DNA of 64,000 nucleotides from Oscillibacter valericigenes. GTDB lineage: Bacteria > Bacillota > Clostridia > Oscillospirales > Oscillospiraceae. The notes under the pieces are model-generated. The model was given only the letters and a program-made list of their open reading frames with translations, was not told the DNA's origin and searched no databases. The stretch covers positions 124,001 through 188,000 of the forward strand of contig NZ_JAFBIQ010000001.1 of the NCBI RefSeq assembly GCF_021531315.1, given 5' to 3'. The translations under genes were made by a program, and so were the position numbers. How positions within the stretch are numbered: the first letter of the stretch is position 1; each line of letters begins with the position of its first letter. Below are positions 1 through 6,117 of this stretch, piece by piece.

Positions 1-2554
1 GCGTAAAGCGGAGAAAATCCTCGGGTACGCCGTCGAGCGCGCAGAATGCCGCATAATCCAGCGGCTCCGCCTGACCGGCAAGACTGCGGCGGTCGATACC
101 GCGCAGCGTATCGGAAACAAAGAGGTTATCGCGGAAGGTGCCGAGGTCGCGCCCGGAAACAGCGCCGGCAAACTGGTCGCAGTCCTCGATGAGGACAAGG
201 CTGCGGCAGAGTGTCACCGTGCAGCCGGAGCCGCTCAAAGAGGCATCGTCCTCGCGTCCCGAGCCGACGATGCCGCCGACGCTGCTCTTGCCGGAGAGCG
301 TGAGCTTTGCCCAGCACGAGCGGATATTGGAGGAGGAAAGCCCCGCGATGCCGCCGATATAGCTGCCGGTCTCGCTCTTCGCGCTGCCGTAGGCCTCGCA
401 GGAGAGCACGATGCCGAGGTCCATCTCTCCGACGATGCCGCCGATGCAGTTCTTTTTTCCTGTGATGCTGCCGCGGTTGACACAGTGCTGCACAATGGCC
501 TTTGTCTCATAGACGCGGTTGAGCACGGAGGTAGACTGCTTCTGGTCGTCCTCGGGGTCCAGCTCGTACTCGATGGACATGGCACCGGCGATGCCGCCGA
601 CATTCAGATCGGCCTCCACGGCGCCGTAGTTCGTGCTGCTGCGGACCTTGCCGAGCGTTGCGGCGTCGATGTTCTCATCGGAGGTGTCCTTGAAAAGGTC
701 GGATGCGTCGGCATCGGTAAAGTCCGTAAAGATATCGAGGCAAAGGTTGAGCACCACAGTCATCTGCGTGTTTACCGCGCGCAGATCGGCGGTGAGCGAC
801 TTTCCGTCGTCAGAGAGGTCGTCGCCGAGCGCGTCCAGCTCGTCCACCGTGCTGCGCAGATTGGTGAAAAGGCGGTCCAGCGTGTCCTGATAGCCATCGC
901 CGAGCGGATAGAAGGTAAGCTCACCGCGCCCGTTGAGGTCCTCGACGACGCGGCGCGCTTTGCGCATCGCGGCGCTGAGGCTGTCGGAGGCGCTGCCGAG
1001 CGCGCGCAGGGCGCGTTCGAGGTCGTCGTGCGCCTTGGGCACGGCGTTCTCGAGATAGTCCGTTAATATCTTCATGATGCCGGAGACATCGGATGCCATG
1101 GTGGACAGCACATCGGCTGCCTCGGTCAGGCAGGCGAGGGCTTTGGCCGTATCGCCGCTCTCGATCGCTCCGCGCAGCTCGTCGGTCAGGCCGCTGAGAG
1201 TATCGCTCTGCCGCCGAAGATCGTCGCTGTACCGCGTGAGCTGCGCGCGGTCGGCGGCGCTCAATTGAAGGTCGCGGTTGCACTTCTCTAAGGCGGTGCC
1301 GACAGCAGAGCTGTCGTCGGCAGCGTCCTCAAGAGAGCGAAGAATGTCGGGCAGCGCCTCCATCACATCGTCCACGCGACCGGTCAGGTCGTTGAGTGTT
1401 CCGACATTCTTGTCGATGAAGTCGGTCGTTTGGCTGGCGAGCGAGTCCGCCTCGTCCACCGCGGCATTTGTATAGGCCGATACCGAGTCAAGATGCGCGG
1501 AGACCGTTTCGTTCATGCCGTCCACATCATCCAGCGCGGAGGATACAAGCGCGTTGAGCTTACTCAGCTCACGGCGCAGCCGGGCGATCAGGTCATCGCG
1601 CGGAGAAAGGCGGAGATACGGCTCCGCCTGGCCGACGATGCCGCCCACATCCTTGCGCCCGTAGATCATGCCATAGTTCAGGCAGGCGTCCGCATAGCCG
1701 CTGCTGCGGCCGGCGACACCACCGACATTGTAGCCGAAGTGCGGATAGCCGACAGCACCGCGGTTCGTACAGGAGAGCAGACTGCCGGAGGAATAGCCTG
1801 TAACGCCGCCGGTGTCCGAGGTAGATCGGCGGCTCTCCACAGCACCGACGGAAACGAGGTCGGTGATGGAGGCGGCGGGATCGATGCTCAGCTCGTCAAG
1901 ACTGAGCGCGGGATCGACGCTTGCGGTGTTCACACCGGCGGAGTTGACGCACGCGCGCAGCGTACCAAGGTTATAGCCAACGATGCCGCCGGTGTAGCGG
2001 CTGGCAGAAACGCTGCCGCTCGCCCTGCAGCCGGCGACAAGACCGCTCTCTTCATTGCGGCCGACGATGCCGCCGACAGCGCTGTCGCCCTTCACCACGC
2101 CGAAGAACGAGCAATCCTCGATCGTGCCGTAGCTGCGGCCGGCAATACCGCCGACGAATTCCTTTGTGCCGCCGGGCGTGATCTGCCCCTCGACCTTGAG
2201 CGAATGGATGCGCGCGCCGCGCTCGACCGTGAGGAAAAGCCCCGCGGGCGAGAGAGAGCCGGTCAGCGTCAGTCCGCTGATGGTGTGGCCGCCTCCGTCA
2301 AAGGTGCCGCCGAAGCTGGCGATGGGCTCAAAGTCCACGCCGGTGAGCGAAAGGTCGGCGGTCAGAACGACCGTCTTGCCGCGCGACCACGCATCGTAGG
2401 CGCATTGCTCGGACAGCGCGCACAGATCCTCCGCCGTGCGGATGTAAACGACCTCATCCTCGCCGGCGGCAAGGACAGGCAGGCACAGGGAGAACCCCAT
2501 TACGAGCGACAACAGGAGCGCGATCAGGCGCGAGAAACGCTTATTCGACCTCAT
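1..2554 (-). CDS. Secreted GLUG-repeat protein (partial, C-terminus outside window)
   Basis: The frame is open from an ATG at 2554 to the window edge (about 851 codons, no stop). The N-terminus is a signal peptide: basic MRSNKRFSR, a hydrophobic stretch, then LAAG. Residues about 35-335 and from about 640 onward carry repeated GGIVG / GGIAG motifs, the GLUG type that folds as a beta-helix in surface proteins. Between them lies a roughly 300-residue Asp/Leu/Ser-rich helical region that looks like coiled coil. AGGAGG sits 7-8 bases before the ATG, and the start overlaps the end of the upstream MMPL permease by 14 bases, so the two are co-transcribed and probably translationally coupled. I infer an extracytoplasmic partner of the permease. 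The precise role is unknown. Confidence 0.8.
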   Translation of the reverse strand, partial: MRSNKRFSRLIALLLSLVMGFSLCLPVLAAGEDEVVYIRTAEDLCALSEQCAYDAWSRGKTVVLTADLSLTGVDFEPIASFGGTFDGGGHTISGLTLTGSLSPAGLFLTVERGARIHSLKVEGQITPGGTKEFVGGIAGRSYGTIEDCSFFGVVKGDSAVGGIVGRNEESGLVAGCRASGSVSASRYTGGIVGYNLGTLRACVNSAGVNTASVDPALSLDELSIDPAASITDLVSVGAVESRRSTSDTGGVTGYSSGSLLSCTNRGAVGYPHFGYNVGGVAGRSSGYADACLNYGMIYGRKDVGGIVGQAEPYLRLSPRDDLIARLRRELSKLNALVSSALDDVDGMNETVSAHLDSVSAYTNAAVDEADSLASQTTDFIDKNVGTLNDLTGRVDDVMEALPDILRSLEDAADDSSAVGTALEKCNRDLQLSAADRAQLTRYSDDLRRQSDTLSGLTDELRGAIESGDTAKALACLTEAADVLSTMASDVSGIMKILTDYLENAVPKAHDDLERALRALGSASDSLSAAMRKARRVVEDLNGRGELTFYPLGDGYQDTLDRLFTNLRSTVDELDALGDDLSDDGKSLTADLRAVNTQMTVVLNLCLDIFTDFTDADASDLFKDTSDENIDAATLGKVRSSTNYGAVEADLNVGGIAGAMSIEYELDPEDDQKQSTSVLNRVYETKAIVQHCVNRGSITGKKNCIGGIVGEMDLGIVLSCEAYGSAKSETGSYIGGIAGLSSSNIRSCWAKLTLSGKSSVGGIVGSGREDDASLSGSGCTVTLCRSLVLIEDCDQFAGAVSGRDLGTFRDNLFVSDTLRGIDRRSLAGQAEPLDYAAFCALDGVPEDFLRFT

Positions 2555-4991
2555 CGGCTTCGCCTCCTTCCTCGACCATGCTGCCGGAAATGACGGTCAC
2601 ATTCACATCGCCGTCCACGACCGCGTGGACCACACCGCTGACGGTGCCGCGAATCTCACCGTGGACCACACCGTCGAGCCGGATACGGCCGTCCGCCGCG
2701 TGACGGTGGATGACGCTCGGCACGGCGAATGAGGTCTTATCGATGACCTTTGAGCCAATGAGCAGGATCTGCGGCAAGGCAAACATGACCATGAGAATGG
2801 AGATGACCGTGCCGCGGCCGAGGCTTTCGCCGATGCAGGCGATGACGGCCTCGGAGGTCATGCGGCCGATCAAAAAACCGCTGATGGACATGATCGCACC
2901 CGAGGTGATGATGGTCGGGAACGCGAAGTTGAGCGTTTCAACAATGGCGTCGCGGTGGTCCATCTTGACCTTGAGCTCCTGAAAGCGGCTGGCGATGACG
3001 ATGGCATAGTCAATGTTCGCGCCCATCTGAATAGAGCTGACGATCAGGTAGCCTAAGAAGAAGAGATACTTGCCCGTGAGCGTGGGGAACGAAAAGTTGA
3101 TCCAAATGCAGCCCTGAATGACCAAAATCAGCAGCACCGGCATACCTGCGGAGTTGAAGGTGAAAAGCAGCACCGCCATAACGATCAGGATCGAAACGAT
3201 GCTCACGACCTGATTATCGCGGGCAAAGGATTTTTCAAAATCGTACTCGTTCGTGGAGTCGCCGGCAAGGTAGACCCGCTCGCCGGGGTAATACTTCTGC
3301 GCGATGGCGGCGATCTTTTCGGTAAAGGCGTAGGTCTCGTCGCCGCTGACAGGCAGCGTGGAATAGACGAGCATACGGCTGTACTTGTCACCCTGCAGCT
3401 GCAGCTTGGCGTTTGTCATCTGCGTATAGGCATCGTCCAAATCGCTTTGCAGGTCGTCGTCCAGCGTGACATAGCCCTGCTGCACCTCATCATAGAGGAA
3501 GAGAAACATATCAATGAGCGGAACAGAGTAGGTCGAAAGCCCGCCGATGATCTTGCCGTAATTCTCGTCGTTGGCGGCATAGGCTGCGTAAAGGAACTCG
3601 GCAACCTCGTAGTCCAGATCGGTCAGCTCAGCGAAGCGGCGCGGCGTGAGCTTGTCGGTGAGCATATAACCGCCCATGGCCTCGACATTGGAAAGCCCCA
3701 GCGTGGAGTCGATCTCATCATAGCTCTCCAGCTCATCGAGAATGGCGCGCTCCTTTTCGTAGTCGCCGGCGGGAACGATGAGCGCCATGAGGTTTTTCGA
3801 GGTGAAGTTATCGTCGATCATATTCTCGGCGATCTGCGTTTCGTTGAGTTTTGGCGTGGTGAGCAGGCTGTAACCGTAGGCATACGGGCAGTCGGACGAG
3901 AGACGGAAGCCGACGACGGCAAGCACAACGAAGACAACGGGCACAAAATGGCGCGTGGCGTAGTCAAGCTTGCCGACGAAGGGGATCTTCGGAACAAAGC
4001 TGCGGTGGCCGGTCTTATCAATGAGCGGGCCAAAGAGCATCAGCAGCCCCGGCATGACAACAAAGGCCGAGAGCAGCGCGAAGAAGATGGACTTGATGAG
4101 GCACAGCGCCATATCGGGGCCGAGCTTGAACTGCATGAAGAGCATGGCGACCAAACCGCCGATGGTGGTCAGCGAGCTGGCCCCGATCTCGGGAATGGAC
4201 TTGCTCAGCGAAACGATGACGGCCTCGCGCAGCGGCAGGGAGCGATGCTCCTCCTTAAAGCGGTTGCAGAAGATGATGGCGTAGTCGATGGACAGCGCGA
4301 GCTGGAGGATGCTCGTCACGGAGTTGGAGATGAACGAAATTTTGCCCATCATGAAGTTCGTACCCTGATTGAGCACAAGAGCGACCACGAAAGTCAAGAT
4401 CAGCACCGGCACCTCACCGTAGGTCTCCGAGGTAAAGAGCAGCACCAGCAGGATCACGATGGCGACATAGACCATGATGATGCTGATCTCATGGTCTATG
4501 GTCTCCTCCTGCGTGTTGCCGAGACCGGTGGATATGTAGAGGTCGCAGCCGGCGAGTGCCTCCTTGACACGCTCAAGTGCCTCGAGGCAGCGTTCGTCGT
4601 CCTCATCATAGTCAAAGGTGACGGAGAAAAGCGCGCTGACATTTGCGTAGTGCGCGTCGGACTCATCAAACTCCACGCCCTGCACGCCCTCGAGCCCCTC
4701 CAGCATTTCCTGCACATCGAAGGCGTCGGAGAGCGGGAGGTTGGCGACCATCACGCTGGCCGTGCCAAAGGTGACAAACTGACCGTCCATGATGTCGAGT
4801 GCCTGTCGGGTCTCGGAGCTTTCGGGCAGATAGGCGGTCAGGTCGCTCTCCACCTGCACCCAGTTGCGGGAAAAGACGGAGAAGATCAGCCCGATGATGA
4901 CGACAAGAAAGACAAGATTTCGTTTATCGACGATGAAACGGGAAAGCTTAAGCATAAAGCTCTCGCCGCTCGGTTCCGTTGGCTTTGCCAT
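2541..4991 (-). CDS. MMPL/RND-family permease
   Basis: An 816-residue membrane protein with the duplicated MMPL architecture: one N-terminal TM (about 15-35), an extracytoplasmic domain, a block of five TMs (about 165-340) with the family-like GANIDYAIV/SIDYAII motif in each half, a second external domain (about 370-610), and a second five-TM block (about 615-745). MMPL proteins export lipids, peptides or drugs, or move surface molecules; the substrate is not predictable here. The ATG at 4991 has AGGAGGG eight bases upstream. The last 55 residues are not membrane sequence but a Gly/Val-rich series (GVVHGEIRGTVSG and similar) resembling a short beta-helix. It is first in a two-gene unit with the GLUG protein and is preceded by palindromes. 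Confidence 0.85.
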   Translation of the reverse strand: MAKPTEPSGESFMLKLSRFIVDKRNLVFLVVIIGLIFSVFSRNWVQVESDLTAYLPESSETRQALDIMDGQFVTFGTASVMVANLPLSDAFDVQEMLEGLEGVQGVEFDESDAHYANVSALFSVTFDYDEDDERCLEALERVKEALAGCDLYISTGLGNTQEETIDHEISIIMVYVAIVILLVLLFTSETYGEVPVLILTFVVALVLNQGTNFMMGKISFISNSVTSILQLALSIDYAIIFCNRFKEEHRSLPLREAVIVSLSKSIPEIGASSLTTIGGLVAMLFMQFKLGPDMALCLIKSIFFALLSAFVVMPGLLMLFGPLIDKTGHRSFVPKIPFVGKLDYATRHFVPVVFVVLAVVGFRLSSDCPYAYGYSLLTTPKLNETQIAENMIDDNFTSKNLMALIVPAGDYEKERAILDELESYDEIDSTLGLSNVEAMGGYMLTDKLTPRRFAELTDLDYEVAEFLYAAYAANDENYGKIIGGLSTYSVPLIDMFLFLYDEVQQGYVTLDDDLQSDLDDAYTQMTNAKLQLQGDKYSRMLVYSTLPVSGDETYAFTEKIAAIAQKYYPGERVYLAGDSTNEYDFEKSFARDNQVVSIVSILIVMAVLLFTFNSAGMPVLLILVIQGCIWINFSFPTLTGKYLFFLGYLIVSSIQMGANIDYAIVIASRFQELKVKMDHRDAIVETLNFAFPTIITSGAIMSISGFLIGRMTSEAVIACIGESLGRGTVISILMVMFALPQILLIGSKVIDKTSFAVPSVIHRHAADGRIRLDGVVHGEIRGTVSGVVHAVVDGDVNVTVISGSMVEEGGEADEVE

Positions 4992-5008
4992 AAGGACGCC
5001 CTCCTAAT

Positions 5009-5026
5009 ATTGCAATATATTGCAAT
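5009..5026. promoter_or_regulatory. Perfect 18-bp palindrome, candidate operator of the MMPL unit
   Basis: The sequence ATTGCAATATATTGCAAT is its own reverse complement and contains the 8-mer ATTGCAAT twice. It lies 18 bases ahead of the MMPL start codon, immediately before its ribosome-binding site. Its size and symmetry fit a dimeric MarR- or TetR-type repressor site, which is common before drug or lipid exporters. No regulator gene is adjacent in the window, so the binding protein is unknown. Confidence 0.45.
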
Positions 5027-5028
5027 GC

Positions 5029-5051
5029 TTGCCGACGCAATGCGTCGGCAA
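5029..5051. repeat. Perfect inverted repeat, 11-bp arms, 1-base centre
   Basis: TTGCCGACGCA and its exact complement flank a single A. It sits two bases from the 18-bp palindrome at 5009-5026, in the leader of the MMPL unit. As RNA it would form a strong hairpin with almost no loop, so cruciform DNA or a protein site is as likely as an RNA element. There is no U tract, so it is not a terminator. Confidence 0.6.
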
Positions 5052-5210
5052 CGAAAATCAACATAGGCCGCGCAGCACTCCCCTGCTGCACAGCGATGCG
5101 GGCCTTCTTCCCCGCTGACACTACCATACCATAAAAGGGAGAGAAATGAAAGAGGATTTTCCGAAAAGCTGCACATCAAAATGGAGCCTGTCAATGCCGG
5201 CGGCACATAC

Positions 5211-5238
5211 AAAAAGCGGCGGGAACTCCCGCCGCTTT
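5211..5238 (-). terminator. Rho-independent terminator after rsgA
   Basis: On the minus strand a GC-rich stem (GCGGCGGGA / TCCCGCCGC) is followed by TTTTT. It lies just beyond the rsgA stop codon and closes the 16.5 kb gene run that begins at cdaA. Confidence 0.88.
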
Positions 5239-5244
5239 GACGAT

Positions 5245-6113
5245 TCACTTGTTCCACTCGCGCAAGTCCTTGAGCTCATTGTAGAGCCGCAGATAGCTCG
5301 TGTGCCGCGAGGGCGATATTTCTCCTGCCTTGACTGCCGCAAGCACGGCACAGCCCTTCTCCTTCGTGTGGCTGCACCCGACAAAGCGGCAGCCGCCGAG
5401 ATAGGGTGCAAAGTCCGCAAAGGTCTCCGGCAGCTTCTCCTTCAGTTCCAAGCCAAGCTCAGCGGTATCGAAGGAGGAAAAACCGGGCGTATCGATGAGC
5501 TCCGCCCCGCCGGAGAGCTTATAGAGCTCCACATGGCGCGTGGTGTGGCGGCCGCGGCCGAGCGCTTGGCTGACCTCGCCGACCTGCGCGGAAAAGTGTG
5601 GGTCGAGCGCATTGAGCAGGCTGGATTTTCCAACGCCGGAGTTGCCTGTAAAGGCAGACAGCTTTCCAGCCATACGCTCTCTCAGTTCCTCAACGCCCTC
5701 GCCGGTCTCGGCGCTCACCAGCACGAACGGCAGTCCTGCCTGCGCGTAGACGGCGCACAGCTCATCCGCACGGTCAAGATCGGACTTGTTGATGCAGAGC
5801 AGAACCTCGCAGTTTTTGAGCGCTGCAATGGCGGTCATACGGTCGATGAGGTAGGGATCAGTCCGCGGAATGGCATTCGACGCCACGATCACAAGCTGGT
5901 CGATATTGGCGACCGCAGGCCGCGCAAAGACATTGCGCCGCGGCTCGATGGCATCGACCATGCCCTCCGTGCCGGAGACTGTGATCTCGACCATGTCGCC
6001 GACGAGCGGCGAAACGCCCTCCTTGCGAAAGCGTCCGCGCGCGCGGCAGGTCACGATGCCCTCGCCAGTATCAACATAGTAAAAGCCGCTGAGGGCCTTT
6101 TTGATCCTCCCCC

Positions 6114-6117
<4 letters not shown>
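5245..6117 (-). CDS. rsgA: Ribosome small-subunit biogenesis GTPase RsgA
   Basis: This is a 290-residue circularly permuted GTPase. It has an N-terminal OB-fold (about 1-65), then G4 NKSD, G1 GNSGVGKSS and G3 DTPGF in the permuted order typical of RsgA/YjeQ/CpgA, and a C-terminal zinc knuckle with Cys and His in the GGCRFVGCSHTKEKGC region. RsgA acts in late 30S maturation. In Bacillus the homologue CpgA is phosphorylated by PrkC, whose gene directly precedes it here. The start ATG overlaps the prkC stop by four bases (ATGA). A terminator follows; the rpe and thiN genes that often come next in Bacillus are absent. Confidence 0.96.

Follow-up and report, generated by a model that had tools for sequence, protein, structure and literature searches.

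A conserved gene pair of MMPL transporter and GLUG beta-solenoid protein in Bacillota as a probable envelope export system

Introduction

The export of lipids and amphiphiles by MMPL transporters is understood mainly in mycobacteria. At one end of a 64,000-nucleotide stretch of Oscillibacter valericigenes DNA (the window; bases 124001-188000 of contig C34), the gene for an MMPL transporter runs into the gene for a secreted GLUG protein. This raises the question of whether the two genes form one system and, if so, which part the GLUG protein plays in it. An original prediction, made from the DNA alone, had proposed a system dedicated to surface export or envelope bridging, in which the GLUG protein could be cargo or adaptor. 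By computation, the two genes overlap, they are paired across Bacillota, the paired transporters form a single lineage, and the GLUG protein carries a signal peptide, a solenoid, a helical insert and a transmembrane (TM) segment. We consider it probable, with appreciable room for doubt, that the MMPL and GLUG genes encode one envelope export system.

Results

The genes of the locus lie on the minus strand in the order RsgA-like, MMPL, GLUG. The open reading frame that precedes the MMPL gene (5245..6117) is one that we take, by its sequence, to encode an RsgA-like GTPase. The exporter gene itself, of the RND superfamily, spans 2541..4991 and encodes 816 amino acids. The GLUG reading frame starts at 2554 and occupies 2..2554 of the window, which covers residues 1-851; the gene ends 809 nt beyond window base 1, giving a full protein of 1120 residues. 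The end of the MMPL frame and the start of the GLUG frame share 14 nt (2541..2554, minus strand), exactly the overlap that had been claimed.

The GLUG protein consists of a signal peptide, a beta-solenoid, a helical insert of about 300 residues, a further solenoid, a C-terminal part and one TM anchor. Pfam Glug (PF07581) matches residues 1-851 with 27.8 bits and the full-length protein with 25.7 bits, against a cut-off of 20.5. All of the following parts are encoded on the minus strand. Hydropathy and sequence mark residues 1-31 (2462..2554) as a signal peptide, in keeping with the prediction of a secreted protein. In the AlphaFold2 model, the first half of the beta-solenoid comprises residues 35-317 (1604..2452), the helical insert residues 320-613 (716..1597), with seven helices of which one has 80 residues, and the second solenoid half residues 621-831 (62..694). 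The proposed arrangement of two GLUG blocks around a helical region is thus borne out by both sequence and model. The TM segment begins near residue 1062, and the protein ends shortly behind it with a basic tail.

The AlphaFold2 model of residues 1-851, built from an alignment of 66 sequences, has a mean pLDDT of 84.3 and a pTM of 0.66. Both solenoid halves lie mostly above a pLDDT of 95, and most of the helical insert lies at 65-93. A Foldseek search of this model against the PDB returned nothing at E 0.001 or better, and the solenoid matches found in both halves were obtained by VIA-align from the same candidates. The two best VIA-align rows pair the solenoid with those of IgA1 proteases (Z 24-25 over 257 residues) and could fall mostly in the first half. 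Rows for the fucoidan lyase FdlA (Z about 15) align 335-344 residues over the model range 34 to about 813; the first half by itself is too short for alignments of this length, so a single unbroken solenoid of known structure spans parts of the two halves. For the helical insert, the whole-model Foldseek search gave no clear PDB relative, the rows covering it being generic helix bundles. Among 74 homologues, the solenoid halves have median identities to the window protein of 0.50 and 0.47, and the insert has one of 0.24. Including its linkers, the insert is 225-466 residues long in 75 sequences, with a median of 368. XXXLXXG heptad repeats (TIGR03057) are linked to YhgE, and residues 1-851 of the GLUG protein gave no NCBIfam match to this repeat model at E up to 0.1. 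A second GLUG protein in the same genome (G000:C45:215892-216626; L002, L003), with an open frame of 1543 amino acids, is similar only in the solenoid parts.

The window MMPL matches Pfam MMPL (PF03176) in two stretches with 125.9 bits against a cut-off of 20.5; its score of 114.8 bits for HAE3 transporters (NCBIfam TIGR00921) lies below that model's cut-off of 351.9. Each half of the protein contains one Asp-Tyr pair (D236-Y237 and D661-Y662), and both pairs are identical in all 66 aligned paired MMPLs. Such pairs are the proton relay of MmpL3. Its C-terminus is a bactofilin-like tail of short glycine-spaced repeats (2583..2690, minus strand). This tail, tabulated for the named loci described below with the family-sample loci left out, occurs in 73 of 75 paired MMPLs with a readable end; it is absent from L115 and L146 and from the fusion L130 too. 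Judged by eye, all 23 MMPLs that lack a GLUG neighbour are without it. Searched against PDB sequences, the tail profile had bactofilin 6ria as its top match (E 0.0024). Pfam bactofilin (PF04519) matched three of seven tails weakly (E 0.003-0.045, at most 18.2 bits against a cut-off of 27.9), and the window's own tail gave no match to it. Bactofilin is the best match of the tail, and a weak one.

The pairing was followed through three sets of genomes. In the first, the best 80 of at least 569 relatives (the named loci, in which distant members are under-sampled), an MMPL gene lies directly upstream of the GLUG gene in all 78 testable cases. These comprise 76 recognised by script, L112, in which the MMPL gene is adjacent and its usual stop is missing, and the fused L130; L087 and L132, with less than 80 nt upstream, stand outside the count. 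By their titles, the 80 loci come from Oscillospiraceae, Lachnospiraceae, Erysipelotrichales, Tissierellales and others; several are near-duplicates, and L089 and L093 derive from one metagenome-assembled genome (MAG). Under a rule that favours overlaps, the GLUG start codon being taken as that nearest to the MMPL stop, 67 of the 76 loci overlap by 4-34 nt and eight have gaps of 1-28 nt, L108 being unclear. The MMPL gene of L083 is shortened and frame-broken. At L130 (L130:2909-9460, a Candidatus Darwinimomas equi MAG), MMPL and GLUG form a single open reading frame of 2183 codons, joined via a hydrophobic segment; this is one contig of one MAG, and an assembly error could explain it.

In the family sample of 150 genomes, 30 genomes contain GLUG loci that match at E 1e-30 or better, 33 loci altogether. 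In 31 of the 32 testable loci an MMPL gene adjoins, two of these MMPLs being cut by a contig end and two broken; G023 is cut and so not testable. The exception, a full-length GLUG protein on a 150-kb contig without an MMPL neighbour (L069, from G003), counts against a one-system reading. Approached from the MMPL side, the same sample gave 29 loci at E 1e-150 or better, with a GLUG gene next in 27. Of the remaining two, G149 is split between contigs, and at L072 (G102) the MMPL gene is accompanied by a different secreted helical protein, which also weighs against one system. The L072 MMPL is 47% identical to the window's, lacks the tail and is followed by a secreted coiled-coil gene that is cut by the contig end.

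Across a phylum sample of 299 genomes, GLUG (E 1e-30) and MMPL (E 1e-100) were found in the same five genomes, the window's included, and by match coordinates they are adjacent in all five. The probability of identical genome sets arising by chance (5 of 299) is 5e-11. In a tree of 48 paired MMPLs, a chosen subset, and 22 unpaired ones, from which L157 was excluded because of its long additional region, the paired proteins form one branch with an SH-aLRT of 100. The pairing label changes once on this tree, where shuffled labels need 19 changes on average. The unpaired L070 and L071 sit on very long branches that join each other. The MMPL-GLUG pairing is general and conserved across Bacillota, and the family, named-locus and phylum surveys together rule out chance pairing. 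Tabulating how often an MMPL gene accompanies GLUG relatives had been suggested as a check; homologous GLUG proteins proved to be nearly always paired, so an incidental association is not supported. The wider claim of a dedicated export pair, with the GLUG protein as extracytoplasmic partner, is supported by the testable loci (78/78, 31/32 and 5/5, in samples that partly overlap, at least six contigs being of equal length in the named and family sets) and by one fusion.

A few records from these surveys deserve separate mention. The paired locus L111 belongs to a MAG that is labelled Bacteroides; it nests among Bacillota in the MMPL tree and is probably a mis-binned contig. At L042, L058, L083 and L112, the MMPL or GLUG gene is interrupted by a stop in frame, shifts frame or lacks its stop, through decay or assembly error. 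An MMPL-like stretch in another genome (G096:C108:3219-4140) is broken into several short frames, with three TGA codons in one match, for which decay, assembly error or another genetic code are the alternatives.

The 23 MMPLs without a GLUG neighbour, hand-picked from the better matches of the family-sample MMPL search, show what else can occupy this position. A different secreted protein follows 19 of them (L158-L176), whose MMPLs have about 700 amino acids. Ten of these loci have an overlap of exactly 4 nt, and the others have longer overlaps or gaps of up to 57 nt. Ten partners were scanned, and all ten are helical: seven fit the XXXLXXG repeat model and three fit coiled-coil models. The other nine were read in their N-terminal part only. 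The motifs KEEVVY, DYGDY and LPW recur in the N-terminal domain of the partners, and the best stretch of any Pfam match at E 0.001 lay outside this domain. Such a secreted neighbour was absent from the stretch read for L157, L070, L071 and L006/L007, the last being the window genome's own ordinary MMPL. L157 (1158 amino acids) is an MMPL with extra sequence inside the protein, and L177 and L178, with MMPL frames of more than 1000 amino acids, may have such a region too, judging from frame length; the large extra region of these three is perhaps an in-cis counterpart of the helical partner. Because other secreted proteins fill the slot beside other MMPLs, the GLUG protein appears to fill an adaptor-like slot. 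Of the two roles originally offered for it, adaptor accordingly fits better and cargo less well.

Some GLUG relatives are longer, namely 12 of 74 named ones (1321-1661 amino acids), the fusion L130 and five of the family sample. These proteins, the fusion included, carry a further TM segment and additional C-terminal sequence. Modelled from 39 sequences with a mean pLDDT of 89.9, the C-terminus of L077 contains two domains of similar strand-helix order. For the first, the best VIA rows are LprF, LprG and LppX (Z 10.2-10.8; 156-171 residues, rmsd 3.9-4.5); matches to the second are weaker and include LolB (Z 6.3-6.7). Foldseek placed unrelated enzymes and a DUF3598 protein in the four top rows for the L077 model, at low TM-scores, followed by LolA and LprG at E 8.4e-4 and 9.3e-4. 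A domain after the solenoid (model residues 22-86) resembles the InlB B-repeat (Z 6.7). The modelling thus predicts an LprG/LppX fold in a subset of GLUG relatives, and the same fold does not prove lipid binding. The LppX/LprAFG-type half-barrel domain is absent from the window's GLUG protein, and a search of the rest of the window genome with the lipid-carrier profile A5, run without a positive control, found nothing.

Upstream of the MMPL gene lie a perfect 18-bp palindrome (5009..5026), which ends 17 nt before the MMPL start codon, a perfect inverted repeat with 11-bp arms and a 1-nt loop (5029..5051), and a terminator-like hairpin with a T-run (5213..5238, minus strand). All three elements ascribed to the pair are present; the original interpretation is weaker on them than on the pairing. 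The hairpin sits just after the RsgA-like frame and is most simply that gene's terminator and not one of the MMPL-GLUG pair; 0.5 such sites are expected by chance in the stretch scanned. One perfect palindrome of at least 18 bp was observed in the 64 kb, and a first-order Markov model expects about 0.5, so its existence is unremarkable and its place is what is remarkable. Inverted repeats with arms of at least 11 and loops of at most 4 occur at nine distinct sites in the window, two of them upstream of the MMPL gene. A sigma-70-like scan of 4900-5300 found no promoter.

The same perfect repeats, approximate copies being outside the comparison, are listed in none of 29 homologous upstream regions (several with uncertain start codons, such as L046 and L051; four loci had no start, and L042 was left out), and a conserved operator was rejected on this ground. 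Other inverted repeats do occur upstream of homologues, for example at L053 and L064. The 18-bp palindrome could serve as an operator for an unlinked regulator; this is only a suggestion, because the repeats are not in the 29 homologous regions and a genome search allowing up to two mismatches found no second copy of the palindrome. No TetR-type gene adjoins the window pair.

Discussion

The best-supported account of these observations is a proton-driven exporter of lipids or amphiphiles with a dedicated, anchored solenoid-and-helix partner. The MMPL protein would draw on the proton gradient through its conserved Asp-Tyr pairs to carry a lipid or another amphiphile across to the membrane's outer face. 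Next to this pump, the anchored GLUG protein would act as an extracytoplasmic adaptor: the helices of its insert would touch the porter domains or form part of a conduit, and its solenoid would serve within the cell wall as a rigid scaffold. Where relatives carry the C-terminal LprG/LppX-like domains, these would receive the substrate, and the MMPL tail may cluster the pump. The pairing, the fusion, the lineage specificity and the folds were computed; the physical complex, the substrate and its hand-over are what we infer. The lack of lipid-carrier-like domains in the window's own protein weighs against a lipid exporter, and GLUG solenoids are also known in surface proteins without a pump, which counts against a one-system reading. 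A bolder version, in which the helical insert takes in trans the role of the MmpL5 tube, the solenoid is fixed in the wall, LprG-like domains take up lipid in part of the family and a mini-bactofilin tail clusters the pumps, is put forward only tentatively, as we doubt that it holds in full.

The gene neighbourhood counts in favour of this account and bears also on a different reading, that of a TetR-induced pump for the efflux of drugs or detergents, to which the GLUG protein would be an accessory; it would serve defence against amphiphiles such as bile acids and not envelope building. Of the 62 named loci whose contigs leave 800 nt or more upstream, 21 have a TetR-like frame there, found with a home-made profile and divergent in 20; eight family loci (L055-L057, L059-L063) have one directly upstream. 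TetR_N scored above its Pfam cut-off in all nine TetR-like frames scanned, a MarR-type gene stands beside the pair at L048, and several records come from rumen, rectum or colon samples. However, TetR regulators also control lipid export, and the lipid-carrier-like domains in part of the family suit transfer within the envelope better than release. We regard an efflux pump as unlikely, while taking it more seriously than the readings that follow.

The fold of the GLUG protein invites the thought that it is itself the cargo, a surface adhesin or scaffold placed by the MMPL protein or a surrounding machine, with a role in adhesion or wall architecture. Its solenoid resembles those of IgA1 proteases and the L077 domain resembles the InlB B-repeat, both found in surface proteins. 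Nevertheless, with a signal peptide and a TM segment, the Sec route would be enough; the L130 fusion holds pump and GLUG protein in one chain; the same slot beside other MMPLs has other secreted partners; and the substrates known for MMPLs are lipids and small hydrophobic compounds. Cargo is thus quite improbable. An inherited operon that is merely co-regulated, without physical interaction, would account for the solitary L069, but it is hard to square with gene overlap across families, a single-frame fusion and a tail specific to the paired lineage, and we give it very little credence.

The envelope exporter with a GLUG partner that we prefer appears to be undescribed, and the gene pair is present in many Firmicutes, rumen and gut species included. 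Searches of the literature, mostly outside subscription papers, returned nothing on the GLUG motif with MMPL or with an RND transporter in Firmicutes, on a Gram-positive MMPL transporter with TetR and a coiled coil, or on a bactofilin-like C-terminal tail of an RND transporter; the titles retrieved for MMPL with YhgE concern other subjects. The GLUG protein offers a named partner class for MMPLs for which we found no earlier literature, and the conserved pair, its natural fusion and the lipid-carrier-like sister domains offer a system for studying hydrophobic passage through the Firmicutes wall.

Comparison with known proteins places the parts of this system. The GLUG protein has a common beta-solenoid fold with the IgA1 proteases (PDB 7uvk, 6xjb), but Pfam scans find no protease domain in it and its solenoid is broken by the helical insert. 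The MMPL tail is like bactofilin (PDB 6ria, PF04519) in its short glycine-spaced repeats, yet it has only about 36 residues, and its matches stay below the Pfam cut-off, with none for the window's own tail. Nearer at hand, the L158-L176 pumps share with the pair the arrangement in which the gene of a secreted protein overlaps the end of the MMPL gene or lies close behind it, and the ten partners scanned are helical; they differ in that the partner has no GLUG match and another N-terminal domain and the MMPL lacks the bactofilin-like tail.

Among characterised systems, lipid export by the mycobacterial MmpL7 depends as well on a lipoprotein of the LppX/LprG family: LppX, to which LprG is related, is required like MmpL7 for PDIM translocation (PMC8427324). 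There the carrier is a separate lipoprotein, whereas here two domains are fused to the GLUG protein in a subset only. MmpS5-MmpL5 of Mycobacterium tuberculosis likewise joins an exporter to the gene of an accessory envelope protein and has a long periplasmic coiled coil; this coiled-coil insertion in periplasmic domain 2 of MmpL5 is needed for efflux and has been modelled as a periplasmic tube (PMC12501195). In the GLUG system the helices reside in a separate protein, inside a solenoid, and any tube would be conjectural. MmpL5 offers the closest working model for the MMPL-GLUG pair.
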